This document shows, one piece after another, positions 20,630 through 32,221 of a stretch of 32,221 bases of DNA. Every line of letters starts with the position of its first letter. Position 1 is the first letter of the stretch. A program made the position numbers and the translations under genes. Source of the stretch: Candidatus Beckwithbacteria bacterium (GTDB lineage Bacteria > Patescibacteriota > Microgenomatia > UBA1400 > UBA1449); assembly GCA_012797845.1 (NCBI GenBank), contig JAAZOH010000040.1, positions 121,072 through 153,292 of the forward strand. Direction: 5' to 3'. Under the pieces are notes generated by a model, which saw nothing but the letters and a program-made list of their open reading frames with translations, ran no database searches and was not told where the DNA came from.

Positions 20630-20673
20630 AAAAATAAACTTTTATCTGTAATTTGATATTTGGAGCTTAATGT

Positions 20674-21834
20674 ATGCTATATTTAGATCCTCTTTACGGC
20701 CGTCTAGAATTTTCAGATAAGCAGTTAGCTTTATTTCAAACCCCAGCTCTGACTCGGATTAGAGATGTTTCTCTATCAGCTGTGCCACCTTTGGCTACTG
20801 CCTCAGGCATGATCGGCTCTCGTTTTGAGCATTCTGTGGGAGTGGCTCATCTGGCTTCACTATTAGCAACAAAGTCTGATTTTCAAGTCCAGGCAACTAA
20901 CCTATTTGTAGCCTGCTTATTTCACGATATCGGTAGCCCACCTTTTTCTCATATTTCTGAGATTTTGCTTGAGAAAATCAGTGGTCAAGATCATGAAGCA
21001 TTTGCAGCGACTTTTTTTGAAAATAGCGAGACTGCTACAGCCATTAAAAACTTTGGAGCTGACCTAGATATGGTTTTAAAATTAATAACAGGTAAAGCTA
21101 AACCTTGGTCAGATTTGGTCAATGGTAGCATTGATTTGGATAACATTGATAATTCGCTGCGTTGGGGTTCAGCCATTGGGCTTTTTAGTCCCCAATTTTA
21201 TGAGCCCGAAGAGCTGATCCAAGCTTTTTCTTTAAGCGGCAATGAGTTGCAGCTTAAACTAGAACACGAATCCCAAATTCAAAAATGGGAACTGTGCCGT
21301 CGTTTGGTTTATGATGTGGTTTATGATGATCTTAATTTAACCCCAGAAGTTATGCTCAAACGGGCGTTACAGTTTGCTTATGAGGCCGGTGAGCTTGATC
21401 AAGCTTTTTTTATGCTGACTGATTCTCAAGCCCTGTATGTGCTTGAACACCGCTGTAATTCTAAAACTCAGAACTTGATCAAAGATATGCGAGCCTGGCG
21501 TTTTTTCACACCAGTCACTCTAATTGAAGAAACAGATACCACTGCCTCAGATACGTTCAAAGATTTATGCCTTGATTGGGAAGAGAGTCAAAAAATTGCT
21601 GATATTATCGCTCACAGCCTTGATTTGCCTCGGGAAGCAGTAGCGGTTTATGCTGGCAAAGACAAAGGTTTTAAGCAGATTCACTTACCATTTATAGGTA
21701 AAGGTGATATAGTTCAAAGGCATCAACCCATTCAGGAGCTTAAGTGGCGTTTCAAGGTTTATGTTGATAAAAAGTACCATAGCAAAAATGAAGCTATCAC
21801 TGAACTCACTCAAGCCTTGGTTCAAAATCCCTAG
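20674..21834 (+). CDS. HD superfamily phosphohydrolase (dNTPase-like)
   Basis: The 386-residue protein has the HD metal-binding set: FEHSVGVAHLA with His53, CLFHDIGSPPFSH with His84-Asp85 and His93, and DLDNIDN with Asp154. This arrangement is that of dGTPase/SAMHD1-like and YdhJ-like proteins, which hydrolyse deoxynucleoside triphosphates or other phosphoesters. Its N-terminal LDPLYGRLEFSDKQLALFQTP and LTRIRDVSLSAVPPLA match the YdhJ family. GGAG 9 bases before the ATG is a ribosome site. Substrate is unproven. It precedes lon. Confidence 0.88.
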   Translation: MLYLDPLYGRLEFSDKQLALFQTPALTRIRDVSLSAVPPLATASGMIGSRFEHSVGVAHLASLLATKSDFQVQATNLFVACLFHDIGSPPFSHISEILLEKISGQDHEAFAATFFENSETATAIKNFGADLDMVLKLITGKAKPWSDLVNGSIDLDNIDNSLRWGSAIGLFSPQFYEPEELIQAFSLSGNELQLKLEHESQIQKWELCRRLVYDVVYDDLNLTPEVMLKRALQFAYEAGELDQAFFMLTDSQALYVLEHRCNSKTQNLIKDMRAWRFFTPVTLIEETDTTASDTFKDLCLDWEESQKIADIIAHSLDLPREAVAVYAGKDKGFKQIHLPFIGKGDIVQRHQPIQELKWRFKVYVDKKYHSKNEAITELTQALVQNP

Positions 21835-21855
21835 CTATACTAACAGATATTAGAA

Positions 21856-21889
21856 TTGACATTTAGCAAACATAATGTTAGACTGCTAA
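21856..21889 (+). promoter_or_regulatory. lon promoter with a CIRCE-like HrcA operator
   Basis: TTGACA (21856-21861), 17 bases and TAGACT (21879-21884), preceded by TG, form a promoter. Overlapping it at 21863-21889 is an inverted repeat TTAGCAAAC-N9-GACTGCTAA. The CIRCE consensus is TTAGCACTC-N9-GAGTGCTAA. Half sites match 7 of 9 and 8 of 9, with exactly 9 bases between. HrcA bound there would block RNA polymerase until heat shock. A further TATAAT lies at 21892-21897. Confidence 0.6.
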
Positions 21890-21928
21890 ATTATAATAAA
21901 AGAGTCTAATCTCTTATTTTCAAACTAT

Positions 21929-24322
21929 ATGGGCTTACTGGATAAACCAAGCAATGATCAAAAACCAAAACAGGCTCAAGACCTGGTTTTACCTATGGTT
22001 CCTCTTCGGGACGTGGTTATGTTTCCTCATTTAGAAATTGTCCTTTCCTTTGGTCGGGCCGGCTCTATCAAAGCCGTTGAACAGGCTTTTAAAACTAATA
22101 AGTTGATTTTCTTTGCTAGCCAAAAAAATGCCGGCATCAATGAACCGAAATTTGATGATCTTTACAAAATGGGAACAATCTGCCGGATTGAACGGCTTCT
22201 AAAAACTGGTGAAGAAGTCAATGCTTTGGTTAAAGGTTTGGATCGGGCTGAACTGTTAAGCGCCAATTTGCAAGGTGATTTTGGCATTGCCAAAATTAAA
22301 CCTATCAAAGAAATTGAGACCAAAAATAGTCAGGCTGAGGCTTTAGCCAAACTTATTTCCAGCAATTTGAAAAAGCTGGTTAATATGGGTAAGCCGATTG
22401 ATTTTCTAGTTTTTATGAAACTAATGTCTGGCGTTTCTCATGGTGAGCTGGCTGACCAAGTTGCTTCAGTTTTGGAAATTCCTACTAGCCAAAAACAAGA
22501 AATTTTAGAAATGATCACGGTGATGCCTCGGCTCAAAAAAGTCAGTGAATTAATCACCAAGGAAAGTAAGGTTTTGGAAATTGAACATTCAATTGCTAGC
22601 AAAACTCAAAAGAAGTTTGATAAATCTATGCGCGAGGCGGTTTTGCGCGAACGGATGAAAACCATTCAAAAAGAGCTTGGTGAAGCTAGTATTGATGAAG
22701 ACGTGGATCCGGATATTAAAGAATTTAAGCAAAAAGTCGCTAAACTAAAAATGCCCCAAGAAGTCAAGGAAAAAGTCATTAAAGAGATTGACCGTTTGTC
22801 AAAAATGCACTCATATAATCCGGAAGCCAGCTATATTCGGACTTATTTGGAATGGATGACTGATTTGCCTTGGGGGAAATTTTCCCAAAATGGTAAAGAC
22901 AATAAAAAAGCTGAAAAAGTTTTAGATCAGGATCATTACGGATTAGAGGAAGTTAAAGAACGGATTTTAGAGTATTTGGCAGTTATGGCTTTGAAAAAAC
23001 AGCAAGCTCAATATTTTCCCAAAAACGCTCAAGGTATTAAAAACACCACTATTCTTTGTTTTGTTGGCCCTCCCGGGGTTGGTAAAACTTCCATTGGTAA
23101 ATCAATCGCCAAAGCCTTAGGTCGTAAATTTATTAAAGTTTCCATTGGTGGTATTCGTGATGAAGCTGAAGTGCGCGGTCACCGCCGAACCTATGTTGGC
23201 GCTATGCCTGGCCGCATTGTTCAAGGTATTAAAGATGCAGGTGTAATGAATCCGGTTTTCATGCTGGATGAAATTGACAAAATTGGAGCTGATTTTCGGG
23301 GCGATCCTTCTTCAGCTTTATTAGAAGCTTTGGATCCTGAACAAAATACTGGCTTTTCTGATCACTATTTAGAAGTGCCATTTGATCTATCCAAGGTTTT
23401 ATTTATAACTACAGCTAATGTGTTGGATACGATCCCACCCGCTTTACGTGACCGCTTAGAAATTATCCGCTTTTCTGGCTACACTGATGATGAAAAACAC
23501 CAAATCGCCAAACGCTATTTGTTTGAAAAAACCCTCTATGGCTCTGGGCTTTTGAAAAAACAAGTCAGCCTTGCTCCTACTGCGATTGATCGAATTATCA
23601 GAGGTTATACTAAAGAAGCTGGAGTCCGTAATCTCGAACGGGCGCTTAATAAAATCATGCGCAAAATTTCCCGTGAGATTTTATCTGGCAAGAAAAAACA
23701 GCTTACTATTTCCACTAGCAATCTTCATAAATATTTGGGTCCACAAATGTTTTCGGATACGATTGCTGAAAATAAGGACGAGGTCGGTATTTCTACTGGT
23801 ATGGCTTGGACTCAAGTTGGCGGCGATATTATGTTTATTGAAGTCGCTACTATGCCTGGCAAGGGCCGAATTTTGATTACTGGACAACTGGGCAGTGTCA
23901 TGAAAGAGTCCTGTAGAGCTGCGCTTTCTTATCTACGTAGTCATTGGAAAGATATGGGCCTTAAAGCTGATTTGGGTGCCAAGTATGATTTCCATGTCCA
24001 TGTCCCCGAAGGTGCAGTCCCTAAAGATGGGCCTTCAGCAGGGGTAGCTATAGTGACTGCTCTTTATTCAGCTGTGTCTGGTAAGAAAGTCCGTAAAGAT
24101 GTAGCCATGACTGGCGAAATTACGCTGCGTGGTAAAGTTTTAGAAATTGGCGGTGTTAAAGAAAAACTTTTAGCTGCTCACCGCGCCGGTATTAAAACCG
24201 TTATCATTCCTAAAAATAATAAAAAGGATTTGGAGAAATTGCCAGACAAAGTCAAAAAAGATTTGGAAATTAAATTTAGTAACCGAATTGCCGATGTTTT
24301 AAAAGTGGCAATTGTAAATTAA
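21929..24322 (+). CDS. lon: ATP-dependent protease Lon (LonA)
   Basis: The 797-residue protein has all LonA parts. An N-terminal substrate-binding domain begins [19 protein letters not shown] helical linker with [19 protein letters not shown] follows. The AAA+ module has Walker [10 protein letters not shown] with Lys386, [21 protein letters not shown] and FMLDEIDKI. The C-terminal serine/lysine protease has [12 protein letters not shown] with Ser703 and [12 protein letters not shown] with Lys746, the same 43-residue spacing as the E. coli dyad. It degrades misfolded and regulatory proteins. The upstream CIRCE-like element suggests heat-shock control through HrcA. The stop overlaps the convergent GNAT gene by 4 bases. 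Confidence 0.98.
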
Positions 24323-26926: not shown

Positions 26927-27397
26927 ATGGAAAAATTGGTTAGAGATCGTATTCCCGAAATAATCTTAGCTGATCTAGAAATGCCAATTACTCATATTGC
27001 TAATGATGAAGAGTTTACAGAAGTTCTAAAAACCAAGCTACTTGAAGAAATTGAAGAGTTTATTGAAAAACCAAGTGCCGAGGAAGCAGCAGATATTATG
27101 GAGGTTTTATATGCAATTTTTGCTCTAAATGAATTTTATTTGGAAGAAATTAGAGAACTTGGCCAAAATTACTATATATCAGCAGATAGAGAAGTTTTAA
27201 AGTTTATGGCACATGAAAGAGCTGAAGATTTTTTAGAAAACCAAAATCTTAAAAAAGCTGCTAGTATTATACAATTTTTCTATACATTTTTTACTTCGGA
27301 GAACCTTGATTTAGAAGAAGTTGAAAAAGCTCGTCAGGCAAAAAGAGAGGAAAGAGGTGGTTTTGAAAAAAGAATTATTCTAGAAAGAATAGAATAA
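26927..27397 (+). CDS. MazG-like / phosphoribosyl-ATP pyrophosphohydrolase-like protein with duplicated core
   Basis: The 156-residue protein starts KLVRDRIPEII, the family opening, and its end EKARQAKREERGGFEKRIIL is the usual C-terminus. Between them the four-helix core is present twice. Residues 37-77 keep the metal-binding acids (EEIEE, then EEAAD with Asp56). Residues 94-134 align at an offset of 57 but have ER-AED and KKAAS, losing several acids. MazG-like enzymes hydrolyse nucleoside triphosphates to monophosphates and clear aberrant nucleotides. Here a normal dimer may be mimicked within one chain. Eight of ten Arg codons are AGA. It is directly followed (18 bases) by the SET gene on the same strand. 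Confidence 0.78.
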   Translation: MEKLVRDRIPEIILADLEMPITHIANDEEFTEVLKTKLLEEIEEFIEKPSAEEAADIMEVLYAIFALNEFYLEEIRELGQNYYISADREVLKFMAHERAEDFLENQNLKKAASIIQFFYTFFTSENLDLEEVEKARQAKREERGGFEKRIILERIE

Positions 27398-27415: not shown

Positions 27416-27931
27416 ATGAACAAAAAGCAAGATTGGAAAAATCCTAAGGTTGATATTAGGAAAAGTTCAATTGAAGGTTTGGGGTTATTTGCTAAGACAA
27501 ATATTAATTTGGGAGAAAAAATTATTATTTGGCGTGGAAACTATACCAATGCCTTTCAGGCAAAAAAGATGAAAAATGAAGGAAAATTAGTTATGCAGTG
27601 GGATGATGATCTTTATAGTGTTGAAGACAGAGGAAGTGATAAAGGGTATTTCATTAATCATTCTTGCAATCCAAATGTATGGATGCTAGATGCTTACACT
27701 TTGGTCACAAACCGACCAATAAAAACAGGAGAAGAACTAACAGTTGACTATGCCTTGTTTGAAGCTGATGAAAACTATATTTCTACATGGCAGTGTAAAT
27801 GTGGCTCACCTTCATGCAGGGGAAAAGTTACCGGAAAAGACTGGAAATTGCCAAAATTACAAAAAAAGTATGAAGGTCATTTTTCCCCTCTTATCAATAA
27901 ACGTATCAAAAAAATGAAAAATGAAGCTTAG
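27416..27931 (+). CDS. SET-domain protein lysine methyltransferase-like
   Basis: The 171-residue protein is a compact SET domain with post-SET cysteines. It has GLGLFA at residues 21-26 (SAM loop), YFINHSCNPN at 78-87 (the NHSC knot), GEELTVDY at 105-112 (catalytic Tyr112) and WQCKCGSPSCRG with Cys127, 129 and 134. With Cys84 of the NHSC motif these could bind one zinc as in eukaryotic enzymes. The N-terminal pre-SET region is absent and a basic tail follows. SET enzymes methylate lysine in proteins; in bacteria the targets are mostly unknown. It pairs with the MazG-like gene, the two forming a plus-strand islet between minus-strand miaA and miaB. Confidence 0.9.
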   Translation: MNKKQDWKNPKVDIRKSSIEGLGLFAKTNINLGEKIIIWRGNYTNAFQAKKMKNEGKLVMQWDDDLYSVEDRGSDKGYFINHSCNPNVWMLDAYTLVTNRPIKTGEELTVDYALFEADENYISTWQCKCGSPSCRGKVTGKDWKLPKLQKKYEGHFSPLINKRIKKMKNEA

Positions 27932-27945
27932 TTTAAAAATAATTT

Positions 27946-29055
27946 CTATTTTCTGTTTATCAATTTATCCAAAACTTCCCATCGCCTTTTCTTCTCCAAA
28001 TCATGGACATCATCCTGATAAAGCTTAGCCGAAACTGTTCCTGGCCTGGGACTATAACGATTGATATAAGCTAGATTAAAACCAATCTTTTTACAAAGTT
28101 CAACTGTATGCTTAAATTGTTCTTCGGTTTCTCCTGGAAAACCAACAATGATGTCAGTGGTAATTTTGACAACTGGAATTTTTTTTCTGATAGTTTTGAC
28201 AAGCTCTAAATATTGTTTGGCTGTATAGCCCCGGTTCATCTTAGCTAAAATTTCATCATCACCGGATTGTAAGGCCAAATGAATTGTTCGGCTAATTTTA
28301 GGATTAGCTGCAATGCAGTCAATCAGCTGCCAATGGAAATCCCAAGGATTGGAAGATATAAACTCAACTTTTTTAATTCCCTCAATAGCACAAATTTTTT
28401 CTAAAAGCCTCACAAAGGGCGGCTTACCTTTAAAAGCTTTGTATTGACTTTGTGGCGAGGGCATTTTTCTATCTTCATCTAAACGTTTGCGCAAACTCAT
28501 GCCAATTTTTTCCAGACCATAACTATTGACGTTTTGCCCCAAAAGCATAATCTCGCTAAAACCATCCTGAGCCAGTTTTTCTATTTCAGTAATAATATTT
28601 TTCATAGGCCGAGATTTTTCCCGGCCACGAGCCAGTGGCACTACACAATAGCTACAAAAACTATTACAACCGGTGGAAATAGGCACTAAGGCTTTAGTCT
28701 TGCTCTGTCTAATAGAAGGGGTGTTAAAACTAACTTCACTTATTGGTAAAAATTCATCAACTAGAGGGAGAATTTCATGAAGCTTTTCTTCACCATAATG
28801 CAACATGCAACCGGAAAGAATAAGTTTAGGTCGAGACTTTTTATTTTTATATTTTTGAGATAAATTGTGAACCAGACCCAAAACCCGATCTTCAGCTGAT
28901 TTACGTACACTGCAGGTAACTAAAACAATTTCATCAGCTTCATCAGCGTTTTTTGCCAGTATATAACCACGGGATTCATAAACTCCAGCAATGCGCTGGG
29001 CATCAGCTTCATTCATCGCACAACCCCAAGTTTGGATAAAATACGTTTTAGGCAT
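27946..29055 (-). CDS. miaB: tRNA 2-methylthio-N6-dimethylallyladenosine synthase MiaB, lacking the TRAM domain
   Basis: The 369-residue enzyme has both iron-sulfur sets. The N-terminal UPF0004 cysteines are Cys12 (TWGCAMNEADAQ), Cys48 (LVTCSVRKSAEDR) and Cys83 (SGCMLHYG). The radical-SAM motif STGCNSFCSYCVVPLARGRE carries Cys130, 134 and 137. ALQSGDDEILAKMNRGYT and TTDIIVGFPGETEEQF match the core. It adds the methylthio group to i6A37 made by MiaA. The usual protein is about 440 residues and ends in an RNA-binding TRAM domain; here the chain ends at VLDKLINRK without one. TAAAAT lies 8-13 bases before the ATG, suggesting a near-leaderless message. Confidence 0.93.
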   Translation of the reverse strand: MPKTYFIQTWGCAMNEADAQRIAGVYESRGYILAKNADEADEIVLVTCSVRKSAEDRVLGLVHNLSQKYKNKKSRPKLILSGCMLHYGEEKLHEILPLVDEFLPISEVSFNTPSIRQSKTKALVPISTGCNSFCSYCVVPLARGREKSRPMKNIITEIEKLAQDGFSEIMLLGQNVNSYGLEKIGMSLRKRLDEDRKMPSPQSQYKAFKGKPPFVRLLEKICAIEGIKKVEFISSNPWDFHWQLIDCIAANPKISRTIHLALQSGDDEILAKMNRGYTAKQYLELVKTIRKKIPVVKITTDIIVGFPGETEEQFKHTVELCKKIGFNLAYINRYSPRPGTVSAKLYQDDVHDLEKKRRWEVLDKLINRK

Positions 29056-29173
29056 AGGTTTATATTTTAACCTACTTGTAAATAAACCTATATATTCTAT
29101 TCTTTTAGAAATAAATAATTTTTCTAAAATTTCGTTATAAAAAAAACTTAATGAAAATGAGGTAAGTCAATCT

Positions 29174-29722
29174 TTAACAACCATTATGTTCTGAATAGTT
29201 GCCAGTTCCCGTATCAATAGAAAGGCTATACCCTCCACATCCCACATCTCCGCTACTAGCACTAAAAGCTATAAACCCTGCAAAAGCCAGGGCTTGACCA
29301 AATGTATATTTTCTCTCTCGACAAATTTCGGAAAATTTATTTTTCAATTCTATAGGATTTAAACCAGAAAATTGAGCAGTTGATGCTTCAAACTCCTGTC
29401 TTTCCTCTTCGTCGGCCATAAAAGTTTTAATCATTCCTGTAACAAAAACCTTTAATGCTTCTGCTTGAGAAATACCATTTCTTTTAGAACAATCATCAAC
29501 TGTACCATTAATTGCTTTTATTAAAGCAATTAAACTAAATTCACCTTCTTTTTTATGTTTTTCAAAAGATCGTTCCCAACGTTGAGAACAACTTAACCCA
29601 TTACAATCGACACATCTATTTGTAGGACCTCCCTTTTTCTCCCTATATATAGAGAGCAGATTGTCGATAGAAGGTCGAAAGCTAAATGATTGAGATTTGT
29701 CAGGATTTAAAACTTCTAACAT
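29174..29722 (-). CDS. Orphan protein of unknown function with CxxC...C motif (182 aa)
   Basis: I do not recognise this soluble protein. It has an N-terminal segment with Cys37, Cys40 and Cys45 (NRCVDCNGLSC), a helical middle (LIALIKAINGTVDDCSKRNGI and an Asp/Glu-rich stretch), and a Gly/Ser-rich C-terminus with a possible hydrophobic helix (FGQALAFAGFIAFSASS) followed by GCGGYSLSIDTGTGN and a terminal Cys. AGGA lies 7 bases before ATG 29722 and a perfect 11-bp palindrome covers the likely -10. It sits between miaB and a chimeric pseudogene scar, so it appears to be a cargo gene of a variable locus. Function is not inferred. Confidence 0.65.
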   Translation of the reverse strand: MLEVLNPDKSQSFSFRPSIDNLLSIYREKKGGPTNRCVDCNGLSCSQRWERSFEKHKKEGEFSLIALIKAINGTVDDCSKRNGISQAEALKVFVTGMIKTFMADEEERQEFEASTAQFSGLNPIELKNKFSEICRERKYTFGQALAFAGFIAFSASSGDVGCGGYSLSIDTGTGNYSEHNGC

Positions 29723-29742
29723 AAATAGTCCTTATTTATTTT

Positions 29743-29769
29743 ATTATAAGATAAATTATATCTTATAAT
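29743..29769. promoter_or_regulatory. Perfect 11-bp palindrome over the promoter of the 29174-29722 gene
   Basis: ATTATAAGATA (29743-29753) and TATCTTATAAT (29759-29769) flank the 5-base spacer AATTA. On the minus strand the left arm holds TATAAT, 20 bases before ATG 29722. Such a placement fits a repressor operator for the orphan gene, but no regulator is adjacent. Confidence 0.45.
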
Positions 29770-29794
29770 TCTGATATGTCAACATTTTATATCT

Positions 29795-29908
29795 TTTTCC
29801 TAAAATAAAGTTTGGTCCTGATTTTTTTCTTTGAGCTGTTTGTTTTCCTCTCCTAATTCCAGACCTTTAATTTCTGGCATAGACGAGCCAACTACTCCCT
29901 ACAAATTG
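29795..29908 (-). pseudogene. Remnant of the 3' end of a DUF2130 gene
   Basis: These 114 bases align without gaps to 30520-30633, the last 36 codons and downstream flank of the intact DUF2130 gene, at roughly 89% identity (13 differences by hand). The encoded C-terminus, from GVVGSSMPEIKG through to QDQTLF and the stop, is unchanged, so almost all differences are synonymous. One difference turns a Gln codon (CAG) into TAG. There is no start, and the segment runs straight into the miaB remnant. Confidence 0.9.
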
Positions 29909-29991
29909 TGGCCTAGCATTGGACATCAGCCTCGTTCATCGCACAACCCCAAGCTTGGATAAAATACGTTTTAGACATAGGTTTATATTTT
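29909..29991 (-). pseudogene. Remnant of the 5' end of a miaB gene
   Basis: From 29916 to 29991 the sequence aligns with 28993-29068, the start codon region and first 21 codons of the intact miaB, with about 7 differences in 76. The ATG corresponds to 29978-29976 and the product begins MSKTYFIQAWGCAMNEAD; the intact one begins MPKTYFIQTWGCAMNEAD. Several differences change amino acids (P2S, T9A, A19V, R21C). Upstream flanking bases also match for a few positions (GGTTTATATTTTA on the plus strand). After about 20 codons it breaks into the DUF2130 remnant. Confidence 0.9.
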
Positions 29992-30081
29992 ACCTTATTA
30001 TATAAATCATTTACTAAAAACTTGTGATATTTATTTTATATTGTATAATTAATAAATTTTTAAATTTACTGCTATAAATAT

Positions 30082-30528
30082 ATGAATGTAAGAGAATGCG
30101 GACTTGGACAGGATACTCATCATAGTATGATTCTAGCTGTCATGGCAGAGGTTTTAGATGAAGACACACAAACAGAAATGGAAGAATTATTATCTGAGAT
30201 ACTATCTGATTCCTGCGAAGCAACAAAGACATTTAATGGAACAGAATTAGATTTGAAAGTTTTTAGAGATAGATATTGCAAGGGTGATCAAAGTATCAGA
30301 GTTGTATCTATAAAACTAGGAGAAACAGAGTTTCAAATTCCCTTAATTCCTGTTAATTCTTTACGAAGAGCCTGTTTCCCAAAATTTTGTAGTTTAGATA
30401 ATTCAGCTAATGGTAATCTTGAAGAAATCAATTCACAGCCAGGCATGCTTAAAAATGGTATCACATGGGTATTACAAAATTTAAGAGAATGGCAAAAAAG
30501 AGAAATAATAAGTTTTCCATTTTCCTAA
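30082..30528 (+). CDS. Orphan protein of unknown function (148 aa)
   Basis: I do not recognise this soluble, acidic protein. It opens MNVRECGLGQDTHHSM, has an acidic helix (EDTQTEMEELLSEILS) and a region with IKLGETEFQIPLIPVNSLRRACFP. Its last codons and TAA (30526-30528) lie in sequence shared with the DUF2130 remnant (homology begins at about 30520), so the end of the ORF was probably set by the insertion junction. It is the only plus-strand gene between miaB and DUF2130. An AT-rich leader with TATAAT near 30044 precedes it. It occupies the second slot of the putative variable locus. Confidence 0.65.
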   Translation: MNVRECGLGQDTHHSMILAVMAEVLDEDTQTEMEELLSEILSDSCEATKTFNGTELDLKVFRDRYCKGDQSIRVVSIKLGETEFQIPLIPVNSLRRACFPKFCSLDNSANGNLEEINSQPGMLKNGITWVLQNLREWQKREIISFPFS

Positions 30529-31763
30529 AATAAAGTTTGGTCCTGATTTTTCTCTTTGAGCTGTTTGTTTTCCTCCCCTAGCTCTAACCCTTTAATTTCT
30601 GGCATAGAAGAACCGACTACACCCTGCAAATCGCCATACATGCCAGCCGTATTTAGCATCAATCGTTGAATTTGTTTTTCCCGCTGCTGCCAGGATTTTT
30701 CAAAAGCTACTCGCTCTTTAATTACCTGAGTTTGCATTTCAGAAAAAACTTCGACCAAGGCTTCTACTTTTTGCCGAAACTCATGGGAAGAAATATAGTC
30801 AAAGAGTAGTTCTGATTTTTTACCTTTACCGGCGGAAATAGCCCGTTCATAAGCCACAGCCAATAAATTTTGGCGTAAAGCCATTGCTAGTTGCACTGCC
30901 AAAACTGGAGTTACTACCCAAATACCCTTATATTTGGCAAAACCTTCAATATCCTTTGGTAAAATTGTAGTGACTAAAACCGGTATATTGGCTTTGGCAG
31001 CCCGCAGATCATCTTTAAATTTGCTTACCCAAGCTTCAGTCCAATGTTTAGTTCGCTTACTTTCCCATAAAATTACTCCACATAAACTACCTGAGTTATT
31101 ATGTACAGTTTGAATAATATCGGCTCCGGAAACTCCTTTACCTACCGGCTCAATCAGGTCATGAGGGAAATTTTCTTGCAGACTTTTTTCCAGATCAAGT
31201 TCCAACACTTCTCCCTGATTTTGTTGCGAGCCTTGTTGGGCTCGACGTTTAGCCTCTTCTAGTTGTTTAAGTAAATCATTAATAGTTTTTTCTTTTTCCA
31301 AATCTTTTAGCCTATGCTGCTCACCTACTTGTTTACCAATTTCTTCTTCGAGTTTCTGCCGCTGCTGCTGCAGTTTTTTATCAAGTTCCAACCGTTCTCT
31401 TCTCCGCTCCTCTTCCAATTCCCGCATTTTTTTACGTTCAGCTAAGATTTGCTCTTCCATTTCTTTTTTACGCTTATCATCTTCAGAGGTTTTTTCTTTG
31501 AGTTCTTTTAGTTCTAAATCATATTTTTCTGCCATTTTTTCTTCAGCTTTTTCCTGAGCTTGCGACCACAACTGAGCTTTAAGCTTCTTTTCCAGTTCAG
31601 CTTTTTCTTGAACCATGGCTTCTTTATTAGCTTCGATCTGATTCTGCAAAGCTTCGATTTGTTTTTTAAATTTGACTTCACTCTCTGCCTGCAAATGCTT
31701 AGTCAAGGCTTCAGTAATAGTAATTTGTTCCCCGCAGTGAGGGCATTTAATTTGATCTGGCAT
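30525..31763 (-). CDS. DUF2130 domain protein with N-terminal zinc ribbon and coiled coil
   Basis: The 412-residue protein starts MPDQIKCPHCGEQITITEAL (half zinc ribbon, Cys7 and Cys10) and continues with a long Lys/Glu/Gln-rich coiled coil to about residue 190. Then comes the DUF2130 domain (PF09903): DLEKSLQENFPHDLIEPVGKGVSGADIIQTV, GVILWESKRTKHWTEAWVSKFKDDLR, ANIPVLVTTILP and an HEFRQKVEAL segment. The middle of the domain, with Glu-Ser-Lys after a beta strand and an upstream Asp, resembles a restriction-like PD-(D/E)xK nuclease core; that is inference. Function is unknown. The 3' end is duplicated as a remnant at 29795-29908. Confidence 0.88.
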   Translation of the reverse strand: MPDQIKCPHCGEQITITEALTKHLQAESEVKFKKQIEALQNQIEANKEAMVQEKAELEKKLKAQLWSQAQEKAEEKMAEKYDLELKELKEKTSEDDKRKKEMEEQILAERKKMRELEEERRRERLELDKKLQQQRQKLEEEIGKQVGEQHRLKDLEKEKTINDLLKQLEEAKRRAQQGSQQNQGEVLELDLEKSLQENFPHDLIEPVGKGVSGADIIQTVHNNSGSLCGVILWESKRTKHWTEAWVSKFKDDLRAAKANIPVLVTTILPKDIEGFAKYKGIWVVTPVLAVQLAMALRQNLLAVAYERAISAGKGKKSELLFDYISSHEFRQKVEALVEVFSEMQTQVIKERVAFEKSWQQREKQIQRLMLNTAGMYGDLQGVVGSSMPEIKGLELGEENKQLKEKNQDQTLF

Positions 31764-31770
31764 AATGCTT

Positions 31771-31854
31771 TGTCACCCTGTGCAAAATCGAAGGATCTTC
31801 TCAAAAAGATTCCTGCCTGCCGACAGGCAGGTCTCGACAAGCTCGAAATGACAC
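31771..31854. repeat. Dispersed palindromic repeat, copy 2, with central CCTGCCTG hairpin
   Basis: An 84-bp element runs from TGTCACCCTG to CGAAATGACAC between DUF2130 and DUF192. Its centre is CCTGCCTG-CCGA-CAGGCAGG (31812-31831), a perfect 8-bp stem with a 4-base loop, flanked by GGATCTTCTC / AAGATTC and TCTCGACAAGCTCG. It shares ends (TGTCA/TGACA) and inner GATC-TT motifs with copy 1. Any plus-strand frame through it gives PACRQAG, a familiar false-ORF signature. Confidence 0.85.
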
Positions 31855-31857
31855 AGT

Positions 31858-32181
31858 TTATTTTATTTGCAATCTATCCCCAATCTGAACTTGATATTTT
31901 TCAGCCGGTAGTTCAAATATATGCTGCCATGCTGGATTCCAAAACAGCAAGCTATTTGGTTTAAAATTGGCAACAATCTTTCGAACAGTCAACTGGTCAT
32001 CACATACTAACACAAATAGCGGATATGTCATCCCAAAACTATGGATCCCAAACCTGCTTGTAAAATACAAAGCTTCTCCTTTTTTCTTACCAATTAAACC
32101 TCTGGTTTTGGTCAACAAATCTTTAGCTTGAATCAGATTGCTAACCAATATTTGTTTTTGGCTTATATTCTGAACTTGCAT
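31858..32181 (-). CDS. DUF192 family protein
   Basis: The 107-residue protein matches DUF192 (PF02643) throughout: KTRGLIGKKKGEALYF, then GIHSFGMTYPLFVLVCDD, IVANFKPNSLLFWNPAW and a final FELPAEKYQVQIGDRLQI. Family members are small beta-rich proteins, often exported, of unknown function. Here there is no obvious signal peptide. An AGAGGT ribosome site precedes the ATG, and TATACT upstream is a possible -10. Confidence 0.9.
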   Translation of the reverse strand: MQVQNISQKQILVSNLIQAKDLLTKTRGLIGKKKGEALYFTSRFGIHSFGMTYPLFVLVCDDQLTVRKIVANFKPNSLLFWNPAWQHIFELPAEKYQVQIGDRLQIK

Positions 32182-32221
32182 ACCTCTTAATTTATTAGTT
32201 CCAGTATACTAAAATAGATAT

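Follow-up and report, generated by a model that had tools for sequence, protein, structure and literature searches.

Homology-facilitated illegitimate recombination (HFIR) has been described in S. pneumoniae, Acinetobacter baylyi and Pseudomonas stutzeri, and its published junctions carry 3-10 bp of microhomology (PMC3240628). A second kind of event, insertion with long target duplication, is known from H. pylori 26695/J99 (Nobusato et al., 2000, cited in PMC1643837 and PMC3031569). Finally, in the T6SS effector-immunity arrays of Vibrio (PMC5361080) and the CDI orphan arrays of Acinetobacter (PMC6336857), incoming modules stack and leave gene ends behind, and HFIR has been proposed for both.

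Here I describe a locus at which the end of a DUF2130 gene and the beginning of miaB, joined to each other, lie between intact copies of the same two genes, with an unrelated small gene in the gap on either side (Table 1). It lies in a window (the whole stretch of 32,221 nt analysed, G000:C40:121072-153292) that reaches the end of a contig of 153,292 nt, in a Candidatus Beckwithbacteria genome of 1.28 Mb in 46 contigs. The type of mechanism is already known: it is HFIR-like in its working and like insertion with long target duplication in its appearance. As in HFIR, there is microhomology at the join (the 4-nt TGCT, within the 3-10 bp range; PMC3240628) and, as proposed here, homology on one side only; the hosts there are transformable, and the present genome has comEC and dprA. 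Laboratory products of HFIR, however, usually lose resident DNA, whereas both flanking genes and both gap genes remain here, and RecA was not found in the present assembly. The synonymous-only divergence of the DUF2130 remnant indicates that two lineages contributed, although it does not place a homologous crossover with foreign DNA at the opposite end of the segment.

The likeness to long target duplication, in the form in which the later papers cite it, is that cargo is flanked by long direct chromosomal repeats, with no transposase found between the repeats here. That process is described in these papers mainly for restriction-modification genes, whereas the cargos here are ORFans or membrane proteins; furthermore, the present repeats are gene ends with mostly synonymous divergence, and one scar holds the ends of two genes. 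The T6SS and CDI arrays share with this locus the stacking of successive modules at one place and the truncated gene ends left there, but their remnants are of the cargo gene and not of flanking housekeeping genes, and the examined part of the present locus has no secretion-system gene. A scar that records both flanking genes at once is new, as is a codon-position (synonymous) test by which such scars can be recognised when no close relative is available; a literature search on Patescibacteria with gene remnants or illegitimate recombination found no report of such scars in that group.

A scar made of two gene ends

Read along the plus strand, the locus runs from miaB through orphan 1, the DUF2130 3' remnant, the miaB 5' remnant and orphan 2 to DUF2130. 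A sequence-only reading of the window had described a chimeric DUF2130-3'/miaB-5' scar between intact genes. This is confirmed, both direct repeats being present, and alignment of the two remnants with the gene ends gave coordinates that match the earlier ones within a few bases. In a whole-genome self-search the DUF2130 repeat extends over 112 nt (E 2e-34) and the miaB repeat over 78 nt (E 6e-23). The limits of homology approximate gene boundaries, reaching 5 nt beyond the DUF2130 stop and 19 nt 5' of the miaB start. The join between the two remnants has no extended homology, only the TGCT common to miaB, DUF2130 and the remnant, which was found by eye and is of a length (4 nt) that chance can give; short pieces of both genes have been lost around it.

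Table 1. Features of the miaB-DUF2130 locus (window coordinates) and further gene-end scars in the same genome (contig coordinates)
Feature	Position	Strand	Details
Intact miaB	27946..29055	-	369 aa; UPF0004 + Radical SAM; Pfam PF04055 7e-28, PF00919 2e-20
Source copy of miaB remnant (miaB 5' end + 19-nt leader)	28997..29074	-	91% to 29920-29997
Orphan 1, ORFan in gap 1	29174..29722	-	182 aa; coding-like codon use
DUF2130 3' end remnant (last 107 nt including stop, plus 5 nt)	29795..29906	-	89% to 30520-30631
Junction	29907..29919	.	TGCT at 29915-29918; short deletions on both sides; by-eye reading of aligned strands
miaB 5' end remnant (59 nt coding + 19 nt leader)	29920..29997	-	91% to 28997-29074
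Orphan 2, ORFan in gap 2	30082..30528	+	148 aa; 4-nt overlap with DUF2130 stop
Intact DUF2130 gene	30525..31763	-	412 aa; Pfam PF09903 3e-65
PHP-domain gene scar, contig C2	gene 20667-21413; 3' end repeat 23719-23869	same strand	151 nt, 89%
Amylase-like scar, contig C2	gene 48937-50424; decayed 3' copy near 46276-46370	same strand	score 78 vs shuffled maximum 40; cargo 824 aa
purA-like scar, contig C38	gene 50380-51825; 3' copy 48685-48736	same strand	85%; cargo 523-aa membrane ORF

None of the seven genes scanned between 26927 and 32181 has a Pfam match to a transposase or integrase, and no tRNA gene lies in 27500-32221. Insertion by a site-specific element or transposon is thus rejected, the locus having neither recombinase nor tRNA.

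Both gap ORFs exist and, as had been claimed from the letters alone, they are unrelated: the best local score between the gaps is 30, against a shuffled maximum of 33, which is no similarity above chance. The codon usage of each orphan scores above 99% of non-coding frames; the score of orphan 2 (0.124) is low among genes of similar size, yet it exceeds the non-coding frames. Neither has a significant match in Pfam, PHROG or PADLOC, and searches of 53 related genomes, of 380 genomes from the phylum and of viral contigs gave no relative for either; orphan 1 likewise has none in genome contigs or plasmids, and orphan 2 none in phages. Single-sequence structure models of the two (pLDDT 46 and 54) are too weak for use.

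Two minor features lie nearby. A short SET-domain protein (27416-27931, 171 aa, PF00856 7e-14) of this small bacterial genome adjoins miaB. Segments 27361-27396 and 29093-29128 form a weak inverted repeat (78%) that places an inverted copy of the 3' end of a 156-aa gene inside gap 1; with an E of about 6e-4 in AT-rich sequence, it is probably due to chance.

Gene-end copies at other genes and in relatives

A scan for local gene-end copies over 1,277,215 of the 1,277,431 nt of the genome found three further scars (Table 1). Each lies on the strand of its parent gene, copies sequence at most a few nt from the gene end and is separated from the parent by a cargo gene. The labels amylase-like and purA-like rest on inspection of the sequences, without a family search. 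The cargo of the PHP scar comprises a 362-aa ORF, a tRNA-Asp gene and a 245-aa ORF. Among filtered low-copy matches of genes to intergenic DNA (E<=1e-5), four are local, all of them terminal and on the same strand; the roughly 60-fold larger rest of the genome, taken as a comparison, holds nine such matches. No scar was found in the first 400 kb of a closed genome, G004, and the samples are too small to judge whether the rate of scars is unusual.

G013, which belongs to the same order, has a second copy of its miaB 5' end (106 nt, 94%), separated from the first by a 585-aa ORF; the 5' end of an adjoining SRPBCC-like gene is repeated around a Fic gene, that copy standing at the first base of the contig. 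Cargo is flanked by direct repeats of one chromosomal segment at the PHP locus (151 nt) and at the miaB locus of G013; at the window locus, direct repeats enclose the gap genes on both sides. Since other genes of this genome, and G013 too, carry like scars, the process is general and not a property of this locus.

The earlier reading had also taken the miaB-DUF2130 interval for a slot that collects small genes and had proposed comparing it across relatives. Part of this stands. G001, a member of the same family but another genus, has an unduplicated arrangement of miaB, a 163-aa ORF and DUF2130 (proteins 59-68% identical), so that its interval also holds a small ORF; there are no duplicated fragments there, and G002 has miaB but no DUF2130 match. 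Among relatives in which both genes were located, the two are adjacent in G001 only, and in the other neighbourhoods examined a gene-end fragment beside either gene was found only at the miaB of G013. A special slot shared across the order is therefore rejected, and like scars at other genes in the present genome and G013 likewise speak against one.

The 163-aa ORF of G001 shares its strand with orphan 2 and, as orphan 2 does, has a 4-nt overlap with the DUF2130 stop. A global alignment of the two gives P 0.02, and the local alignment is not significant; the evidence that they may be remote positional counterparts is suggestive at best. If they are, orphan 2 would be the older resident and orphan 1 the newcomer. 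A separate observation concerns DUF2130 in G027 (L022:311-426 and 2750-2868), where non-coding direct repeats of 119 nt (89%) flank a DUF2130 gene and a 290-aa nuclease-like ORF.

Divergence of the copies and possible histories

Between the DUF2130 remnant and the intact gene there are 12 nt differences, distributed 3/0/9 over the codon positions, which amounts to 10 synonymous codons, one nonsense codon and no missense codon. When a duplication with subsequent neutral decay of the remnant copy was simulated 1500 times, about 7 nonsynonymous codons were expected, and no run gave one or fewer (0/1500). Given the absence of missense changes and this simulation, the two DUF2130 copies most likely evolved apart while functional, each in its own lineage, and came to lie in one genome only afterwards. 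A like pattern is seen at the PHP scar (5 synonymous, 0 nonsynonymous; P about 0.005) and at the miaB scar of G013 (5 synonymous, 1 missense; P about 0.01-0.03). Tandem duplication with later decay, one of two histories that the earlier reading had offered, thus fails for the DUF2130 half; the other, in which a homologous segment arrives with a cargo gene of its own, finds support, for a linear piece and a circle alike. The miaB remnant has 2 synonymous and 3 missense changes among 19 codons, too few to decide, and by itself it is compatible with either history, plain decay included. It may predate the DUF2130 piece; in principle, the two remnants need not be of one age.

It is rather likely that the scar arose by recombination between two diverged alleles of one locus, with one out-of-register join. 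The observed part of this account consists of the anatomy, the unrelated gaps, the lack of missense changes in the DUF2130 remnant, the like scars elsewhere and the ComEC and DprA genes. One parent allele (X) would have read DUF2130 - orphan 2 - miaB and the other (Y) DUF2130 - orphan 1 - miaB. DNA of one parent, presumably taken up by transformation and integrated in a single event, would have been fixed in the other at one side through homology lying in miaB or DUF2130 or farther out. A microhomology of about 4 nt (TGCT) would have served for the illegitimate joining of its free end within the flanking gene on the opposite side. At the join, X, running to about codon 20 of its miaB, would meet Y, starting about 110 nt short of the DUF2130 end; the initial 59 nt of one miaB would thereby abut the final 107 nt of the other DUF2130. 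The product would retain one intact copy of each housekeeping gene with both cargo genes stacked, the intact DUF2130 coming wholly or partly from X and the intact miaB wholly or partly from Y.

Three points tell against this as the best explanation: the changes in the miaB remnant, taken alone, fit plain decay; published HFIR usually deletes resident DNA and both flanking genes are intact here; and no RecA, on which HFIR depends in the cases tested, was found in the assembly. Neither the PF00154 profile nor tblastn with E. coli RecA gave a match in the stitched genome, and 47 of the 53 genomes in the set of relatives, G001 and G002 included, have RecA. The gene may be missing through an assembly gap, the assembly being rated complete but fragmented. 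That the lineage truly has no RecA, and that relatives' genes are taken up and stacked by a RecA-independent, homology-anchored end-joining, I regard as decidedly unlikely; if it were so, synonymous-only gene-end scars would be the footprint of that route.

Campbell-type single-crossover integration of a circle carrying the DUF2130 3' end, one orphan and the miaB 5' end would give an identical product, and the matching segments of 78 and 112 nt could serve as the arms of the circle. The crossover would, however, be confined to one of these short segments at about 90% identity, where a linear donor could use longer homology, and there is no recombinase or replication gene between the repeats; such an origin is doubtful.

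Tandem duplication of a miaB-gap-DUF2130 unit within one lineage, followed by replacement of the content of one gap and decay of the junction, would leave exactly the observed gene order, and the missense changes in the miaB remnant fit decay. It is nevertheless an unlikely history: none of the 11 altered DUF2130 codons is missense, an outcome that no simulation run reached, and two other scars show a like synonymous pattern. Furthermore, the homology ends at the gene ends, the gaps have no sequence in common and extra events of cargo replacement would be required.

An assembly chimera of two co-occurring strains is very improbable, although the assembly is in 46 contigs and a mixture of diverged strains would likewise give synonymous differences: overlaps of up to about 126 nt between contig ends suggest a large-k graph, for which the 4 nt shared at the junction are far too few to allow an assembly jump, scars of like form occur in G013, and the stop codon within the DUF2130 remnant together with the older, decayed amylase-like scar argues that the scars are real and ageing.

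If recombination between diverged alleles is the correct reading, gene-end scars in a single genome reveal that recombination with a relative brought in a gene, how far that relative had diverged and where the join was made, also where no close relative has a sequenced genome, and the codon-position test sets them apart from tandem duplications of the ordinary kind. The presence of several scars in one small genome suggests that this group does gain genes through integration by one-sided homology.

Repeats of other kinds

Several further repeats were set aside. Those at C8, C15, C36, C42 and others belong to paralogous or repetitive genes, and a candidate at C33 was no better than shuffles. 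A segment shared by C35 and C2 proved to be a tRNA-Asp gene; its near-identical copies lie at G000:C2:22703-22777 (L117:2703-2777), between the cargo ORFs of the PHP scar, and at G000:C35:7374-7484, after a 524-aa serine-recombinase-like ORF. On C38, a two-gene block is duplicated about 9 kb apart (20974-22767 and 30396-32189), and past the second copy the 3' end of a third gene occurs at 34306-34356, after a 517-aa ABC1-kinase-like ORF.

In G004, an inverted gene-end copy is scar-like but reads as the template and variable repeat pair of a diversity-generating retroelement. The apparent element (G004:C1:118603-122847) comprises a template repeat (118603-118737), an RT-like ORF (118902-120035) and an Avd-like ORF (120032-120427). 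A 796-aa LamG-like gene carries the variable repeat at its 3' end, where the changes lie mostly opposite template adenines.
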